A DNA stretch of 64,000 bases from Phycisphaerae bacterium. Its GTDB lineage: Bacteria; Planctomycetota; Phycisphaerae; Tepidisphaerales; Tepidisphaeraceae. The position numbers and the translations under genes were made by a program. The stretch spans positions 1 through 64,000 of the forward strand of contig JAICTV010000001.1 in assembly GCA_025936175.1 (NCBI GenBank), read 5' to 3'. A model generated the notes under the pieces. The model saw nothing but the letters and a program-made list of their open reading frames with translations. It did no database searches and was not told the DNA's origin. Below, piece by piece: positions 6,611 to 26,465 of the stretch; position 1 is the stretch's first letter; every line of letters starts with the position of its first letter.

Positions 6611-8386
6611 TTAGTGATCCAGCATCGGCCGATACAGTTTCTGCCGAAACTGCGGCTCGCGCAGCAGCATCGCCTGAAGAAACCGAAAGCTGTCGGCCAG
6701 ATAGCCCTCGTACCCGGACGGCTTTCCGTCCCACGTCGTCCAGTCGATCCCCTGCATCGCCGCGTCGGTCACACCGTTCTGGAACTCGCCGCGCTGCTGC
6801 CGCGCGAGCATCGCCTTGAGCACCGTGTCCGCGCGCTCCGTCTCCCCGACGAGGTAAAGGGCGTCGATGAAGTGCAGCGAATGCCCGGCGGAGATGCCGC
6901 CGTTCATGTAGACGCCGAAGGTGTCGGTGCCGTCCTCCTTGTGCGGCATGCCGATCGCATCCGGCTGGAGATAATCGGCGTGCAGCACCGGCACGAGCTG
7001 GCTGGGGACGCCGAGATCGAAGCGCGTGAAGCCGACCTGCTGCATCTTGGACCAAAGTCGATCGAGGATCCGTCGTCCCTCATCGGCATCGACCAGACCG
7101 TACTCGATCGCGAGCCCGTTGATCGTCGGCGCGGCGTAATCGTGCAGCGTGCCGTCGGCGCTCTTCCACCACGCGAGCCAGCCGGTCCTGGGATTGATCA
7201 GCGTCTTCGCGTATGCCGACTTGAGTCGATCGGCGAGCTGCGCGTACCGCGCCTGTTTATCCGCGTCGCGGACCTGCGCACACAGGTCCGCCATGCAGCG
7301 GAACGCGCGATAGACGAGTGCGTTGGTGTACGCGTCCTTGTGCCCGCAGTTGAGCGCATCCCACCAGGCGCACGATCGTGCGGGTTGCTGAAGCGTGTTG
7401 TAGTTGCCGCTCTGGGTCGCCTCGACGAGGCCGTCGGCGTCGATGTCACGTGAGGCGAGATACTCCGCCGCCAGCTCCAGCCGCGAGAGCTTCTTTGTAA
7501 GCCACGCGCGGTCGCCGCTCCCTTCGACGTAATCCCACGCCGCGATGACGGGCGAGGCGTTGGCGTCGAGGAAGTCGTGGTAATCCCAGTACCCGGTGAT
7601 CTCGCCGGTCTCTTTCCCGGCGGCGTCGCGGCGCATCTTCGTGTCGATCCAGTACTCGATTGTCCGCCGCAGCATCGGGAGCAGTTCGTCGCGCAGCGGA
7701 AGGGGCGTGAGGAAGATCTGATCGGCATAGAACCAGAGCGACGTGCTCGCCGGATCGCTGATCACGTTGTTCCCGAGGATTCCTGCGGGTGAGCTGAACG
7801 GCCTTCCCTGCTCGCCCCATTGCGCGCACGGCTGGATCGCGTTGAGCCACCCGCGCCTTGCGAGCATCCAGCCATCGATCGACTTGAGCCCCTTCGGCGG
7901 ATCGATCAATAGCGGCGTGAACTCCAGCTCGACGGGTTCGTCACACGCGAGGAAAAGCTTCACCCATTTCTCGGCGCGGCTTCCCGTGAGTCTGCCGAGC
8001 ACCCGCGCGCCGCCCCGTGCCGCCAGCCGCATGGGACCAAAATCAGGCGCGTTGATGATTCCCGGCAGCTCGAACGACCCGTCGTCGTTGAATCGTGTGA
8101 GGATTGTCGTCGGCGTCACGCGCGGGTCGAACGGCAGCACGAATCTTGCCGCCGCATCGAGCGAAACGACTATTGATCCGCCTTCGGCGCGTGCAGAAAT
8201 CTTCGCGCCGGTCGCGCGGGCCGGTTCACGGAGCAGGTTCCGCTCTACGCGCTTGCCGCCCTCGGTGTCCCAGCTCAAAAACTTGATCGCCGACCCATCG
8301 TCGGTCATTTCCACCCGCGCGACCGGGCCCCCGAATGCGAACGATGCCGACATGATCAGCACCAGCGAAAGAAGTGGTTTTCTCAC
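6611..8386 (-). CDS. Exported six-hairpin glycosidase-like protein
   Basis: This 591-residue protein has a signal peptide (LLSLVLIMSASFAFG). The following beta-rich part and a long alpha-helical domain (about 200-590) resemble the (alpha/alpha)6-toroid glycosidase superfamily. Typical stretches are YWDYHDFLDANASPVIAAWDYVEG, DADGLVEATQSGNY, CAWWDALNCGHKDAYTNALVYRAF and the C-terminal YEGYLADSFRFLQAML. Acidic residues that may be catalytic cannot be assigned by eye. The GTG at 8386 is preferred over a TTG at 8410 because a -10-like TATCAT lies exactly 9 nt before it, mirroring the divergent gene. It likely acts outside the cytoplasm on a polysaccharide, given the neighbouring beta-helix and Wzy/Wzz genes. 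Substrate unknown. Confidence 0.77.
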   Translation of the reverse strand: MRKPLLSLVLIMSASFAFGGPVARVEMTDDGSAIKFLSWDTEGGKRVERNLLREPARATGAKISARAEGGSIVVSLDAAARFVLPFDPRVTPTTILTRFNDDGSFELPGIINAPDFGPMRLAARGGARVLGRLTGSRAEKWVKLFLACDEPVELEFTPLLIDPPKGLKSIDGWMLARRGWLNAIQPCAQWGEQGRPFSSPAGILGNNVISDPASTSLWFYADQIFLTPLPLRDELLPMLRRTIEYWIDTKMRRDAAGKETGEITGYWDYHDFLDANASPVIAAWDYVEGSGDRAWLTKKLSRLELAAEYLASRDIDADGLVEATQSGNYNTLQQPARSCAWWDALNCGHKDAYTNALVYRAFRCMADLCAQVRDADKQARYAQLADRLKSAYAKTLINPRTGWLAWWKSADGTLHDYAAPTINGLAIEYGLVDADEGRRILDRLWSKMQQVGFTRFDLGVPSQLVPVLHADYLQPDAIGMPHKEDGTDTFGVYMNGGISAGHSLHFIDALYLVGETERADTVLKAMLARQQRGEFQNGVTDAAMQGIDWTTWDGKPSGYEGYLADSFRFLQAMLLREPQFRQKLYRPMLDH

Positions 8387-8390
8387 CGCC

Positions 8391-8404
8391 CGGCTATGAT
8401 AGCC
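8391..8404. promoter_or_regulatory. Symmetric divergent -10 palindrome
   Basis: The palindrome GGCTATGATAGCC at 8392-8404 contains TATGAT (8395-8400) for the plus strand and TATCAT (8401-8396) for the minus strand. Each lies exactly 9 nt from its start codon (ATG 8410, GTG 8386). Only 23 bases separate the two start codons, so both transcripts would be nearly leaderless. No -35 match is seen on either side. Confidence 0.45.
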
Positions 8405-8409
8405 GCGCA

Positions 8410-9600
8410 ATGACGTGGGTGCGCGGACGCTCTCGCTCCATTATCGTCACGATCTGTGCCGCCGCCTGCGTGCTGCTCTTCGCGACCGCAATGCTCCGCG
8501 CCCGCGAGCCGGCGGCGCGGTATCGCATCACGCGCGGCGGGACTTACAGCGGTGAATACGTCAGCGACGATCCGTCACTGGCCGTAATCAGCGTCGAGAC
8601 GAGCGATCCCGTCATCATCGAGGGCTCTATGCTTCGCGGCCGCGGCAATCTGATCGTCAGCCATTATCACCACGCGGACGTCACGATCCGCAATTGTGTC
8701 GGCAGCGGCGCCGGCCGATTCGCGCACGTCGAGGGCTTCAACCGAGTCACGATCGAACACTGCCGCCTCGACGGCACGCGGGGGATTTACCTGCTCGACT
8801 ACGCGGGCGATCGCTCCCCTCGGCAGTCGATCCGCGTCGCGGCGAACCAGGCACGCAACATCGACGGCCGCCGGCAGGACGGGAAGCAGGATCTTGTTCA
8901 ATTCCTCCAGCTCGACAAGATCCGCCACGTCGCGGGCGTAGACATCCTCTTCAACGAAGTGATCAACGAGCCGGTTAAAAGCTGCGTCGAGGACAACATC
9001 AGCATCTACCTCTCCAGCGGCACGAAGGAGAGCCCGATCAAGATCCACGACAACTTCATCCGCGGCGCCTATCCGTCCGACCCGCTGGCGAAGGGCTACT
9101 CCGGGGGCGGGATCATGCTCGGGGACGGCGTCGGCAAGACCGCCGACGATGATGCACAGTTCGTCGAAGCTTTCGCCAACCAGGTCCTCGATACCACCAA
9201 CTACGGCATCGCGATCTCCGCCGGCCACGACTGCACGATGTATCACAACCGCATCGTCTCCGCCGGCGTGCTGGCGGACGGCACGAAGATCCCGGCGCAG
9301 AACGTCGGCGCGTACATCTGGGATTCGTACAAGGCGGGCAAGCAACACTTCTTCAACAACCGCGGGCACGACAACGTCATCGGCTGGATCAACAAGGACG
9401 GCCGCAACGACTGGTGGCGTCCGGACGCGGCGGCGTGGGACAACAATCAGAATTGGCCCGGCCCCATCACGTCCTCCGTCTACGACGAGGAATGGAACCG
9501 CTGGCAGCAGAAGCTCAAATCCGCCGGCATCAGCGTCGGACCTACCTCGGCGTCCCCGCCGGGCGCGTCGCAGCCAGCTTCGCCGTCAACTCGTCGATAA
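8410..9600 (+). CDS. Exported right-handed beta-helix protein
   Basis: This 396-residue protein starts with a signal anchor or signal peptide (IIVTICAAACVLLFATAMLRA). It continues with repeated short strands typical of parallel beta-helix proteins of the pectate-lyase-like fold (IIEGSMLRGRGNLIVSHYHH, VTIRNCVGSG, VTIEHCRLDG, NYGIAISAGHDCTMYHNRIV). Such proteins bind or cleave polysaccharides. No lyase motif can be named with confidence. The ATG at 8410 replaces longer frames because it starts the signal sequence and sits 9 nt after TATGAT. Its last 59 bases overlap the 3' end of the convergent Wzy-like gene, so the SPPGASQPASPSTRR tail is encoded opposite that gene's C-terminus. Confidence 0.8.
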   Translation: MTWVRGRSRSIIVTICAAACVLLFATAMLRAREPAARYRITRGGTYSGEYVSDDPSLAVISVETSDPVIIEGSMLRGRGNLIVSHYHHADVTIRNCVGSGAGRFAHVEGFNRVTIEHCRLDGTRGIYLLDYAGDRSPRQSIRVAANQARNIDGRRQDGKQDLVQFLQLDKIRHVAGVDILFNEVINEPVKSCVEDNISIYLSSGTKESPIKIHDNFIRGAYPSDPLAKGYSGGGIMLGDGVGKTADDDAQFVEAFANQVLDTTNYGIAISAGHDCTMYHNRIVSAGVLADGTKIPAQNVGAYIWDSYKAGKQHFFNNRGHDNVIGWINKDGRNDWWRPDAAAWDNNQNWPGPITSSVYDEEWNRWQQKLKSAGISVGPTSASPPGASQPASPSTRR

Positions 9601-12049
9601 ACTTCTTCGCTCGCGGATCGTTGGGATGCTGACGCAACGCCGCTTGCGCTTCGCCGATCGCTTCATCATTTCGACCCATCAAGCGAAGCAGCTCCGCGTG
9701 ATTCAGCCGCCAGTCGAGGTTCGTCGGCTCCAGCTCGAGCGCTTTGCGATAGTTCTCGTCCGCGTTTTCGTACCTGCCGAGGCTCGTTCGATACGCCGCA
9801 ATGGTCGCGAATTTCCAGCCGTTGGGCTCGACCGTCGCGTCCGATTCGAGCAGGTCCGCCCCGCGCGCGTGGGCGAGCTTCCACTCATCGCCGAGGCTCG
9901 GGATCTTCTGCATCGCCGAAGAGACGAACATCATGCGGTACCAGCTCGGCTCGGCGACTTCCATCAGGCGCTGCGGCTCGTGCAGGTCCTTCAGGAGCAG
10001 GTCGCAGACGTCCGGCATCTGGGTGAAATCAAGCGTGACGGCGCGGCGGAGTTCCGGGACCGCCAGATCCCATCGCCCGCGCCGCGCGTCGATCTCCCCG
10101 GCGACTTCGGCCGTCGTGCCGTCGTTTTGCGCGAGCCGAAGCGCGGTGTGGATGTGCGTTATCCCGATCGGCAGGTCGAGGTAGTTCCGCTCGAGCTGCC
10201 CGAGCACGGTATACGGCGATCCAAAGGTCGGGCAGCACGCGCGAGCGGCATTGAGCTCCGCGACGGCGGCGCGAGCGGCATCGGTCAATTTCGGATCGGA
10301 ACGATCGTATCTTTCTCGTTCGATCCGCCAGTGCCAGACCGCGCACCAGTAGCGGATGTACACGTCGTCCGGCCGCGCCGCGATGGCGGCGGAGGATTGG
10401 GCGAGAAGCGCGTCCCGCTCGCCGGGCGTGGCCTTCCAGTCGTTCTCCCGCATGGACGCCGCGGTCGCTCTCGCTTCCTGAAAGTGCACGTCCGACCGCC
10501 ACGCCCGCGTCGCATCGATCACCGCCCAGACGACGAGCGTGACGACGACCAGTGCGATGAAGCCCGTCGCCGTCATCGATCGCGCGCGCGGCAAAGGGCC
10601 GTTGTCTCGATATCCCAGTGCGGCCAGCAATCCGCACGTGACGGCGGAAAGGTTCGCGACCGCCGGCACGTGCTGGCCGAAGTCGCTGAGGCTGTGCAGC
10701 ATGACGGCGACGAGGCCGAAGCTCAGCCCGATCGCCGCCGCCGCCGACGCGGCGCCCGGCGCCGACGCGCGGTCGTCCGCGCGTCGCGCGGCTCGCGACC
10801 ATCGCCACCAGACGAAGCCGATGAAACCCAGCACCGCGGCGATGCCCGCCGGCCCCGTCTCCACCAGCGTCTGCACGTACTCGTTCTCGACGTGCGTCGC
10901 GACGTTCTGCTCGACGTCGCGCTGATACATCGGGAAGACCCACTCGAAGGCTCCCAGTCCAATTCCGAATTGCGGAAAGTCGCGCACGATGTCGCCGGCG
11001 TTGCGCACCATTTCCAAGCGGTCGATCGTCCCGCCGCGCTCGAGCATGCGCTTCTGCACGCGATCGAAGCCCGTCCAGCAGAGCGCGAGAAAGGCGATCA
11101 GTGCAATCGCGGCGATGACGCCGCCCGCCCAGCGCATTCCGCGCGCCGAGATCAGCGCGATGAAGGTGAATGCCCCGGCCAGCAGCAGCGAAATGACCCC
11201 GCCGCGCGACAGCGACAGCGAGATCGTGAGCAGCCCGAGCACGATCGTCGCCGCCAGCGCGAACGCCCAGGCGCGACGGCCCCAGGCGGAAGGGAACGAG
11301 CGGCCGGTCTGCCGCGCGTCCGCTATCCACATCAGCAGCAGTGCCAGCGCGCAGCCGCCCGAAAGGTTCATGAACTGCGCGTAGTGACTGTGGTTGAAGA
11401 ACGAACCGCTCCGCGCCGGCTCGTCGGTCTCCACGCGCCAATAGACCCAGTGCGTGCCGGTGATGTCCTGTGCCAGCGCCAACGCGGCCAGGACGAACGC
11501 GATGACGGCGATACCCGCGAGCAGCCGCCGCATCCGCTTAGGGTCGCGATAGACGGTAGCGGCGGCGGCGAAGACGGTGGCCGCGATCAGCACGTGCCGC
11601 AGGTCATGCCGCGCGGCCGGCGGGTAAAAGCTCAGCGTCATTCGCGCCAGCCGAACCTTCGCGTCCGGCAGATCGTCGAGCAGTTCGGTCTTGAGCGACC
11701 GGGTGTGCGGCGAGATCGCGCCGACCAGTGCCGTCGGCAGCGGAGCGATCTGCAGGAACGCCACGCCGAGGAAGAGAACGATCGGAGCCCATCCCCAAGG
11801 TCCGATCACGCGGTCGGATCGGCGGCGAAGCACGGTTCGCGCGAGCAGGCACAACGCGATCGCGCCAGCCAAGGCGGTGACGATCAGCTCGCTCCACGGG
11901 TTCACCGCGCCGAACGCGGCCGGCGCGAATGCCAGCAGAGCGAACATCAGAACTTCGATGAGCGCGTCGATTCGGGGCGTGTGAGGCTCGATCTTGAGCT
12001 GCTGCTGCTGCCGCGTCGCGGATGCCGGCATCGACTTGGCGGGCGTCAT
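9542..12049 (-). CDS. O-antigen ligase/polymerase (Wzy-type) fused to TPR domain
   Basis: This 835-residue protein has about ten or more membrane helices in its first 470 residues and a soluble, TPR-rich C-terminal half. The Wzy_C region is recognisable: LSRGGVISLLLAG, FPQFGIGLGAFEWVFPMY and THVENEYVQTLVETGPAG. Proteins of this family polymerise glycan repeat units or ligate them to a carrier at the periplasmic face of the inner membrane. C-terminal TPR units include YENADENYRKALELEPTNLD and NDEAIGEAQAALRQHPNDPR. The ATG at 12049 overlaps the upstream Wzz-like stop as ATGA, which implies translational coupling and outweighs a longer frame to 12109. The 3' end overlaps the convergent beta-helix gene. 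Confidence 0.85.
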   Translation of the reverse strand: MTPAKSMPASATRQQQQLKIEPHTPRIDALIEVLMFALLAFAPAAFGAVNPWSELIVTALAGAIALCLLARTVLRRRSDRVIGPWGWAPIVLFLGVAFLQIAPLPTALVGAISPHTRSLKTELLDDLPDAKVRLARMTLSFYPPAARHDLRHVLIAATVFAAAATVYRDPKRMRRLLAGIAVIAFVLAALALAQDITGTHWVYWRVETDEPARSGSFFNHSHYAQFMNLSGGCALALLLMWIADARQTGRSFPSAWGRRAWAFALAATIVLGLLTISLSLSRGGVISLLLAGAFTFIALISARGMRWAGGVIAAIALIAFLALCWTGFDRVQKRMLERGGTIDRLEMVRNAGDIVRDFPQFGIGLGAFEWVFPMYQRDVEQNVATHVENEYVQTLVETGPAGIAAVLGFIGFVWWRWSRAARRADDRASAPGAASAAAAIGLSFGLVAVMLHSLSDFGQHVPAVANLSAVTCGLLAALGYRDNGPLPRARSMTATGFIALVVVTLVVWAVIDATRAWRSDVHFQEARATAASMRENDWKATPGERDALLAQSSAAIAARPDDVYIRYWCAVWHWRIERERYDRSDPKLTDAARAAVAELNAARACCPTFGSPYTVLGQLERNYLDLPIGITHIHTALRLAQNDGTTAEVAGEIDARRGRWDLAVPELRRAVTLDFTQMPDVCDLLLKDLHEPQRLMEVAEPSWYRMMFVSSAMQKIPSLGDEWKLAHARGADLLESDATVEPNGWKFATIAAYRTSLGRYENADENYRKALELEPTNLDWRLNHAELLRLMGRNDEAIGEAQAALRQHPNDPRAKKFIDELTAKLAATRPAGTPR

Positions 12050-13374
12050 CGTGCTTTGCCCAGCACGAGCGCAACCGCGAGGCCCGCGACCATTCCGCCG
12101 ACGCCGCACATCGCCATCACGCGCGCGCGATCAGGCGAGGACGGGTGCGTGGGGATGGTCGGCGGCTGCGCGAGCTTCATGACCGCCGCCGAAGCATCGC
12201 TGCCGCTGATCCTCCCGCGCAGTTTCTTGTCCGCCTCCGACAACGCCGCTTCCGCCTCCTTCAGCCTCGCTTCGAGTTGAGCGAGTTGATCGCGCTGGGC
12301 GATCGAAGTCTTCGAGCGGTTCTCCTGCTCATCCACCAGCGCCTTCAATTCGTCCGCCTTGTGCTGTGCGGAATCGCGCTGGTGCTCGAGGTATGCGCGA
12401 TAGGCTTGCGGGTACTGCTTGTCGATCTCCGCGAGCCTGGCGGTGAGCGCATCGACCTTCCGCTGCGTCTGCTGAAGTGCGGGGTGCTGTGGCAGGAGCG
12501 TTTGCCGCTGCTGCGCGAGCGTCGGCTCGAGCGCATCCAGTTCCTTGCGGATGATTGCGCGCTCCTGGTCGATCGCGTCGAAGATACCTGATGAACGCTT
12601 GGACGCGACGAGCTGTTCCGCCTTGGTCGGATCCGCCAGCAGCGGGGCGGCGTCGTCGTATTCGGTTTTCGCCTTGGAGGCGTCCGCCTGCGCCGTCGCC
12701 AGCGCGGCTTTGAGCTGTTGCAGTTGCGATGCGGCGGCTTGATCGGCGTCGCCGGCGGCGATCTTTGCGGAGGTGCGAAAATCGTTCAACGCCTTCTCCG
12801 CCGCCGCCCGCGCGGCTTCCATGCGATCACGATTGGCCGACAGATCGCCGAGGCTGTCGGCGCTGGCCTGTTGCTGCTGTCCCGCCGCCTTCAGATAGGC
12901 GCTCGCCAGCGCGTTCAACGTCATCGCCGCCTGCTCGCCGCGCGGAGCACTCAAGCTTACCGTCATCGTCCCTTGACCTTTATCGGTATGAATCGCGAGC
13001 TGGTCGCGAAGCTGCTGCACCGGCGGCGGCGTCCCGGGCGTGGCAGCGGCGGCAAGCACCGGCTCGGAAAGGAATAACTCGCGCTGTGCGGCAAGAAATT
13101 CATCCGGCGGCAAATCCTTCGCCGAGGGTGGCCGCGTGTGCTCGACGGCAAAAACGACGGTGGATGTGTAGAGCGGCGTCGCCGCCGCGCACCACAGGAT
13201 TGCAACAAGCAGCGCCACCGCGACGGCGGCCGCGACGACCCACCATTTCGAAGCCACCGCCGCCAAAAATCCGCCGTCACGCCCCTCGTCCGATCCGTCC
13301 CAGGTTCCGCGCAACGGAAAACCCCCGTCCGCCGGCGGTGACACCGCGGGATCGGGGGTTGTCGGCTCGCTCAT
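12046..13374 (-). CDS. Wzz/GumC-like polysaccharide chain-length protein
   Basis: This 442-residue protein has a membrane segment near the N-terminus (WWVVAAAVAVALLVAILWCAA, about 44-64) and a second near the C-terminus (VMAMCGVGGMVAGLAVALVL). Between them lies a long coiled coil (about 160-390) rich in Ala, Gln, Glu and Lys. This is the layout of polysaccharide co-polymerases that set chain length together with Wzy. A PPTIPTHPSSP motif before the last helix is the usual Pro-rich segment. There is no fused tyrosine kinase domain. The start MSEPTTP (13374) is chosen over a frame opening 18 bases upstream. Stop and next start overlap (ATGA) with the Wzy-like gene, so the two are surely one operon. 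Confidence 0.85.
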   Translation of the reverse strand: MSEPTTPDPAVSPPADGGFPLRGTWDGSDEGRDGGFLAAVASKWWVVAAAVAVALLVAILWCAAATPLYTSTVVFAVEHTRPPSAKDLPPDEFLAAQRELFLSEPVLAAAATPGTPPPVQQLRDQLAIHTDKGQGTMTVSLSAPRGEQAAMTLNALASAYLKAAGQQQQASADSLGDLSANRDRMEAARAAAEKALNDFRTSAKIAAGDADQAAASQLQQLKAALATAQADASKAKTEYDDAAPLLADPTKAEQLVASKRSSGIFDAIDQERAIIRKELDALEPTLAQQRQTLLPQHPALQQTQRKVDALTARLAEIDKQYPQAYRAYLEHQRDSAQHKADELKALVDEQENRSKTSIAQRDQLAQLEARLKEAEAALSEADKKLRGRISGSDASAAVMKLAQPPTIPTHPSSPDRARVMAMCGVGGMVAGLAVALVLGKAR

Positions 13375-25016: not shown

Positions 25017-25625
25017 TCATTTCGTAACCCCGCCCTCCCGCTGCACCTGGCGATACCGAAAGCACGACACCTGGTGATCATTCACCATGCCCACCGCCTG
25101 CATCATCGCATAACAGATCGTCGATCCAACGAACTTAAAGCCGTGCCGGAGAAGGCCTTTGCTCATCGCGTCGGAGATTTCTGTCCGCGAAGGCACATCC
25201 TGGAACGATTTGACGCGGTTCTGAATCGGCTTGCCGCCGACGAACTGCCAGACGTATTTGTCGAAGCTCCCGAACTCGCGCTGCACCGCGAGGAACGCGC
25301 GGGCGTTGGTGATCGTCGCGTCGATCTTCAGCCGGTTGCGGACGATGCCTTCGTTCGCCATCAATTTCGCGACGCGGCGGGCGTCATAGCGCGAGATTTT
25401 CTTCGCGTCGAAGTGATCGAACGCCGCGCGATAGTTGTCCCGCTTGCGCAGGATCGTCTCCCAGCTCAATCCCGCCTGCGCGCCTTCGAGAACGAGGAGC
25501 TCGAACAGCGCCCGATCATCGTGCAGCGGCACACCCCATTCGGCGTCGTGATACGCGATACCCAGCTCGGTCTTTGCCCACGCGCAGCGTCGTCGTCGCG
25601 CGCTCGCGCTTGAATCTCCCGGCAT
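25017..25625 (-). CDS. tag: DNA-3-methyladenine glycosylase I
   Basis: This 202-residue base-excision-repair enzyme removes 3-methyladenine from DNA. The zinc-binding residues known from E. coli TAG are present: Cys14 and His26 in RCAWAKTELGIAYHDAEWG, plus the His and Cys of VNDHQVSCF near the C-terminus. LEGAQAGLSWETILRKRDNY and FVGSTICYAMMQAVG are family hallmarks. A TATCAT hexamer lies 7 nt before the ATG on the minus strand, and lpxA starts divergently only 29 bases away. Confidence 0.95.
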   Translation of the reverse strand: MPGDSSASARRRRCAWAKTELGIAYHDAEWGVPLHDDRALFELLVLEGAQAGLSWETILRKRDNYRAAFDHFDAKKISRYDARRVAKLMANEGIVRNRLKIDATITNARAFLAVQREFGSFDKYVWQFVGGKPIQNRVKSFQDVPSRTEISDAMSKGLLRHGFKFVGSTICYAMMQAVGMVNDHQVSCFRYRQVQREGGVTK

Positions 25626-25654
25626 GCGACCGATGATATCCGGCCGAACGCCGC

Positions 25655-26465
25655 ATGAGCCAAATTCACCCCACCGCCGTCATCCACCCCCGCGCCGAGC
25701 TGGCGGACGACGCCGTGATCGGCCCGTTCTGCGTGATCGGCGATCGCGTGACCGTCGGCGGCGGGACGATCGTGGAGTCGCACACCGTGATCTGTGGCCC
25801 GACCCGCATCGGGGCGCGTTGCCGGATCGGCCCGATGGCGGCGCTGGGGGGCGACGGGCAGTTTCGCGGCGCCGTCCCGGAGTCGTCCTGGCTCATCGTC
25901 GGCGACGAGACGATCGTGCGCGAAGGCGTCTCCCTGCACCGCTCGATCAAGGAGGGCGAGGCGACGCGCATCGGCAATCGCTGCTACATCATGGCGACCG
26001 CGCACGTGGGCCACGATTGCCAGGTCGGCGACGACGTCACTCTGGCCAACGCGGTGCTGCTCGCCGGTCATGTCAGCGTCGGCGACCGCGCGTTCATCGG
26101 CGGCCTTTCGTGGATCCACCAGTTTTGTCGCATCGGCCGCCTGGCCATCGTCGGAGGGTTTGAAGTTGCCCGGAAGGACGTCCCGCCGTTCGCGGCGTAC
26201 GTGCACGGCGGGCTCAAGGCGTACAACGCCATCGGCTGCCGCCGCGCGGGAATGGATGCGAAGGCGATTCGTGCCGTCCGAGCGGCGTACCAGCAAATTC
26301 ACTCGCATCGTTCGGCGCGCGGCGCGGCGGACGCGATCGAAGCGAGCGATTCGAGCGGCGTCGCCGAAGTGCGCGAAATCGTCGACTTCCTCCGCAGCGG
26401 CAAGCGCGGGATCACGGCGAGCTGTCGCCTCGCCCGACGCGCCGATTCGTCCCACGCCGGCGAAG

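Follow-up and report, generated by a model that had tools for sequence, protein, structure and literature searches.

Bidirectional promoters in which both directions share a symmetric -10 element have been described by Warman, Grainger and colleagues (Nat Microbiol 2021; PMC10268837; PMC12825309). The divergent transcription starts of bidirectional promoters lie 7–25 bp apart, usually 18 bp, and a -18T and an initiating A are frequent, but not obligatory. Among the bidirectional promoters of E. coli and most bacteria, the 18-bp spacing is found more often than any other (PMC12825309, PMC10268837), and 18- and 23-bp classes were described in E. coli. Leaderless mRNAs driven by a -10 element directly ahead of the start codon were reported in Bacteroidetes, Cyanobacteria and Deinococcus-Thermus and were inferred for low-Shine-Dalgarno Planctomycetes (PMC5397173). 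No description of a bacterial promoter that is both leaderless and bidirectional was found in the open-licence literature, and no published transcription-start maps were found for the Phycisphaerae lineage.

The window, a stretch of 64,000 nucleotides from a Phycisphaerae bacterium, carries two divergent genes encoding secreted proteins. The first encodes a right-handed beta-helix protein of 396 aa (8410..9600, + strand; Pfam Beta_helix, 9.9e-6, narrowly below the curated cut-off), and the second, with a GTG start, encodes a glycoside-hydrolase-like protein of the (alpha/alpha)6 type of 591 aa (6611..8386, - strand; Pfam Bac_rhamnosid6H, 1.1e-7). The N-termini at the two called start codons, MTWVRGRSRSIIVTICAAACVLLFATAML and VRKPLLSLVLIMSASFAFG, are both signal-peptide-like, fitting secreted proteins. 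Unsupervised start calling, which was blind to the finding at this locus and took the -10 motif as one of its inputs, picked ATG 8410 and GTG 8386 with a spacing of 9 nt on both sides. GTG 8419 is a possible alternative start on the + strand for the beta-helix gene. The 3' end of the beta-helix gene overlaps a convergent membrane-protein ORF (9542–12109, - strand), possibly of the O-antigen-ligase type, by 59 bp at 9542–9600.

ATG 8410 (+) and GTG 8386 (-) are separated by 23 bp. Positions 8380–8412, read from the window sequence, are TTCTCACCGCCCGGCTATGATAGCCGCGCAATG, and the order across the gap is TTCTCACCGCCC, GGCTATGATAGCC and GCGCA, followed by ATG. GGCTATGATAGCC is a perfect 13-bp palindrome (6+1+6) at 8392..8404 and encloses the symmetric heptamer TATGATA at 8395–8401. 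The predicted -10 hexamers of the beta-helix and glycosidase-like genes are TATGAT (8395..8400, + strand) and TATCAT (8401..8396, - strand), located 9 nt before ATG 8410 (8401–8409) and 9 nt before GTG 8386 (8395–8387), respectively. The palindrome, both hexamers, the 9/9 spacing and the 23 bases between the starts were given in the preliminary description, and all of them are exact by sequence, with the same starts returned by the unsupervised calling. In TATGATA, the -10 elements of opposite strands overlap with coincident -7T and -11A. Both hexamers lie within 6–11 nt of their start codons, and no GGAG, GAGG or AGGA was present as a Shine-Dalgarno motif in the 23-bp gap between the two starts.

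The -10 geometry predicts RNA start regions at 8407..8410 on the + strand, from G8407 at the canonical 7-bp distance up to A8410, and at 8386..8389 on the - strand, from G8389 at the canonical 7-bp distance up to G8386. The predicted starts at 8407(+) and 8389(-) are 18 bp apart, with predicted leaders of 0–3 nt. We therefore consider the 23-bp gap to be a minimal bidirectional sigma-70-type promoter that is near-leaderless both ways, with a probability of roughly 0.7. RNA polymerase would bind the symmetric TATGATA in either orientation, because each direction's -11A and -7T are paired with the -7T and -11A of the opposite direction. Transcription would begin at about 8407 rightwards or about 8389 leftwards, 18 bp apart, and the mRNAs of both secreted proteins would carry leaders of 0–3 nt. 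Facing start-adjacent promoters about 18–23 bp apart must have overlapping -10 boxes; with two boxes placed 6–10 nt from each start codon in 23 bp, the overlap would be unavoidable, and TANNNTA would be the overlap that preserves the critical bases of both boxes, hence the symmetry. The preliminary description had called both genes apparently leaderless. Essentially no leader is supported for either direction; strict leaderlessness goes further than the predicted 0–3 nt.

The locus resembles the promoters of Warman, Grainger and colleagues in its TATNATA core, its reciprocal -7T/-11A and its predicted starts 18 bp apart. Unlike in those promoters, the predicted starts are only 0–3 nt away from the start codons, which would make all of the intergenic region promoter, and both the -18T and the -35 element are missing. 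G is the predicted +1 base in both directions, and therefore the locus has neither the -18T nor an initiating A. No TTGACA-like -35 was present 16–18 nt upstream of the -10 on either strand, the best match at the locus being 2/6. Because a -35 is absent on both sides, the promoter is probably weak or needs help. An intrinsic terminator at the palindrome was ruled out; it has no T tract, and none was found in the terminator scan.

Start-adjacent -10 boxes were counted in a 1.17-Mb sample of the same genome with 837 predicted genes and, for comparison, in 400 kb of a complete genome of the same family, G013. In the genome of the window, TANNNT occurred before ATG 4, 4, 2, 3, 0 and 4 times at gaps of 0–5 nt, and 20, 35, 28, 29, 22 and 17 times at gaps of 6–11 nt. 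The lower edge of this peak is sharp at 6 nt, which is the shortest gap at which RNA would start on the start codon. Decoy starts inside genes had no -10 peak at 6–11 nt. The distribution before ATG in G013 had the same shape. Above the start-adjacent boxes, TTGACA-like hexamers (at least 4 of 6 positions) peaked at a 17-nt spacer in the genome of the window (18 vs. 3.5 expected) and at a 16-nt spacer in G013 (7 vs. 1.3 expected). Because a correctly spaced -35 signal lies upstream, the start-adjacent boxes are promoters, and a translation signal was rejected as their source. A separate gene class in the same lineage carries Shine-Dalgarno motifs. Start-adjacent -10 boxes were found at 22% of first genes and 16% of operon-internal genes, a trend only (p = 0.11). 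Among the related genomes sampled, the signal was clear in G013, and the samples of G026, G036 and G040 were too small or without signal. Across the class, the pattern matched 662 times at 6–9 nt vs. 361 times at 22–25 nt; ordinary leadered promoters also fall into the latter set, which makes it an imperfect control.

The 6–11 nt peak together with the genome-wide spaced -35 signal indicates that start-adjacent promoters are ordinary in this lineage, which appears to use these leaderless-type promoters routinely, as a common gene class. This is in line with what has been inferred for low-Shine-Dalgarno Planctomycetes (PMC5397173). The 9-nt spacing at the locus is typical for this genome. As in the known -10-driven leaderless mRNAs, the -10 lies 6–11 nt ahead of the start, the distribution breaking off sharply at 6 nt, and the gap has no Shine-Dalgarno motif; unlike in those cases, the promoters occur in Phycisphaerae, are mixed with a Shine-Dalgarno class, and here stand head to head in one shared box. 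The claim that a single symmetric -10 serves both directions is supported by the published 18-bp geometry and by the genome-wide start-adjacent -10 boxes associated with a -35. The locus is probably a compact case of the bidirectional promoters already described, in a lineage where the components are common.

It is unlikely that the -10 drives one gene only, the reverse box being a by-product of -10 near-symmetry and the other gene relying on a start within the neighbouring gene or on a different promoter. In its favour, TATNAT boxes are nearly symmetric by nature (PMC10268837), a confirming -35 is lacking in both directions, and TANNNT at 6–11 nt was found in 26% of sampled divergent genes, so most of them rely on something else. 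Against this, the reverse box is also placed at the preferred 9 nt of the genome, and TATCAT does not score lower than TATGAT; with the genome's own -10 matrix, TATGAT and TATCAT fall within the top 6.4e-5 and 4.0e-5 of genome hexamers, respectively. No other consensus promoter was present in 8250–8550. The shared promoter for both genes remains the preferred reading, with activity in both directions and leaderless translation inferred. It had also been suggested that a shared -10 would force competition between, or coupling of, the two enzymes. This is weakened by five tested E. coli bidirectional promoters, which showed no polymerase competition at the basal level, but only on strong activation of one direction (PMC12825309). 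The absence of a -35 on both sides argues for low activity and is a further point against forced competition.

The four shortest divergent gaps in the 1.17-Mb sample were 18, 22, 22 and 23 bp long, and all four carried TANNNT 6–9 nt from the start on each strand. In L086 (12710–12729), the genes for a solute-binding lipoprotein and a MazG-like protein stand head to head across an 18-bp gap, CATGACTCGTATAATACGAACATG, with predicted leaders of 0–1 nt both ways. L093 (5266–5289; SIS-domain protein and esterase) and L125 (8192–8215; chorismate synthase and a secreted protein without Pfam match) each have a divergent 22-bp gap with overlapping start-adjacent -10 boxes. Taking the last T of the -10 as -7, the predicted start-to-start distances for L086, L093, L125 and the locus in the window were 18, 23, 21 and 18 bp, respectively, and three of the four gaps fit the 18- and 23-bp classes of E. 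coli. Further TATNATA pairs with two ORFs were found in G001, G005 and G020 of the same family (L207, L210 and L212, respectively), with different genes each time. Since the gene pairs differ at each site, the layout seems to come up repeatedly and not to have been passed down with a single pair. The family-wide scan returned 20 sites for the symmetric pattern and 13 for the reversed control, a modest excess, and several of the symmetric matches were not intergenic. Elsewhere in the window, at 25625–25655, the genes for a 3-methyladenine glycosylase and an LpxA-like protein diverge across a 29-bp gap; TATCAT is located 7 nt before the minus-strand start, and the plus strand has no clear box. 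In a related genome, at G039:C355:9648-11261, the repeat TTGACTGCAGGTCGGGGTCGGTTACAAT is present in at least six identical copies, with an ATG in varying sequence a few nt after each; these look like an array of promoter copies.

We regard it as very unlikely that the box lacks promoter function and is an AT-rich sequence arisen by chance, or a signal related to translation, in a short gap. Palindromes of 13 bp as such are commonplace: a perfect 6+1+6 palindrome turns up every 1,714 bases in the genome, with about 37 expected per window, and therefore the dyad by itself is unremarkable. TATNATA is different, with 28 copies in the whole 5.5-Mb genome. Yet two of the four divergent gaps described above contain it, which chance would be very unlikely to produce at a frequency of about 1e-5 per position. 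In the 1.15 Mb of readable sampled sequence, 6 of its 11 copies lie no more than 40 nt ahead of a called start, in a zone making up 2.8% of the sequence; the control ATANTAT showed some concentration in that zone too (3 of 9). Correctly spaced -35 signals at start-adjacent boxes would also be unexpected of a translation signal. The locus is taken to be a real, well-placed and probably functional bidirectional near-leaderless promoter.

The preliminary description had proposed that conservation of the palindrome and the 9/9 spacing be examined in related genomes. Across 41 related genomes, none of the same genus, and 44 further loci for the glycosidase, the gene pair and the palindrome were not conserved. 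Homologues of the glycosidase-like protein were found in Verrucomicrobiota, Planctomycetota, Acidobacteriota and others with differing neighbours, and those of the beta-helix protein at other places in the relatives, in neither case with the palindrome. A conserved enzyme pair was rejected, as the homologues of either protein have other neighbours. This argues against a conserved co-regulated pair of enzymes, not against promoter function. A perfect 13-bp dyad centred exactly between divergent genes could also be the operator of a dimeric transcription factor or another DNA-binding protein that controls both genes, overlapping unrelated promoters. We find this highly improbable, since perfect palindromes of such size occur every 1.7 kb and the exact GGCTATNATAGCC occurs once in the 5.5-Mb genome. 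Copies with up to two mismatches numbered 53, vs. 135 for the reversed-pattern control; with a unique palindrome and near copies below the control, there is no regulon.

We hold tentatively, and at somewhat less than even odds, that head-to-head genes in this planctomycete family have evolved 'zero-leader' bidirectional units time and again, the entire region between the genes consisting of one overlapping -10 and RNA starting at both start codons. If so, selection for a symmetric -10 would follow from the packing of start codons, and leaderless initiation would be used for both genes. If confirmed, the locus would be a minimal natural test case, with the promoter, the RNA starts and the translation starts of two genes in 23 bp. 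Confirmation would also suggest that genes with start-adjacent promoters of the leaderless type form a normal class in a Phycisphaerae lineage, and that the -10 box should be taken into account as a signal when gene starts are annotated there.
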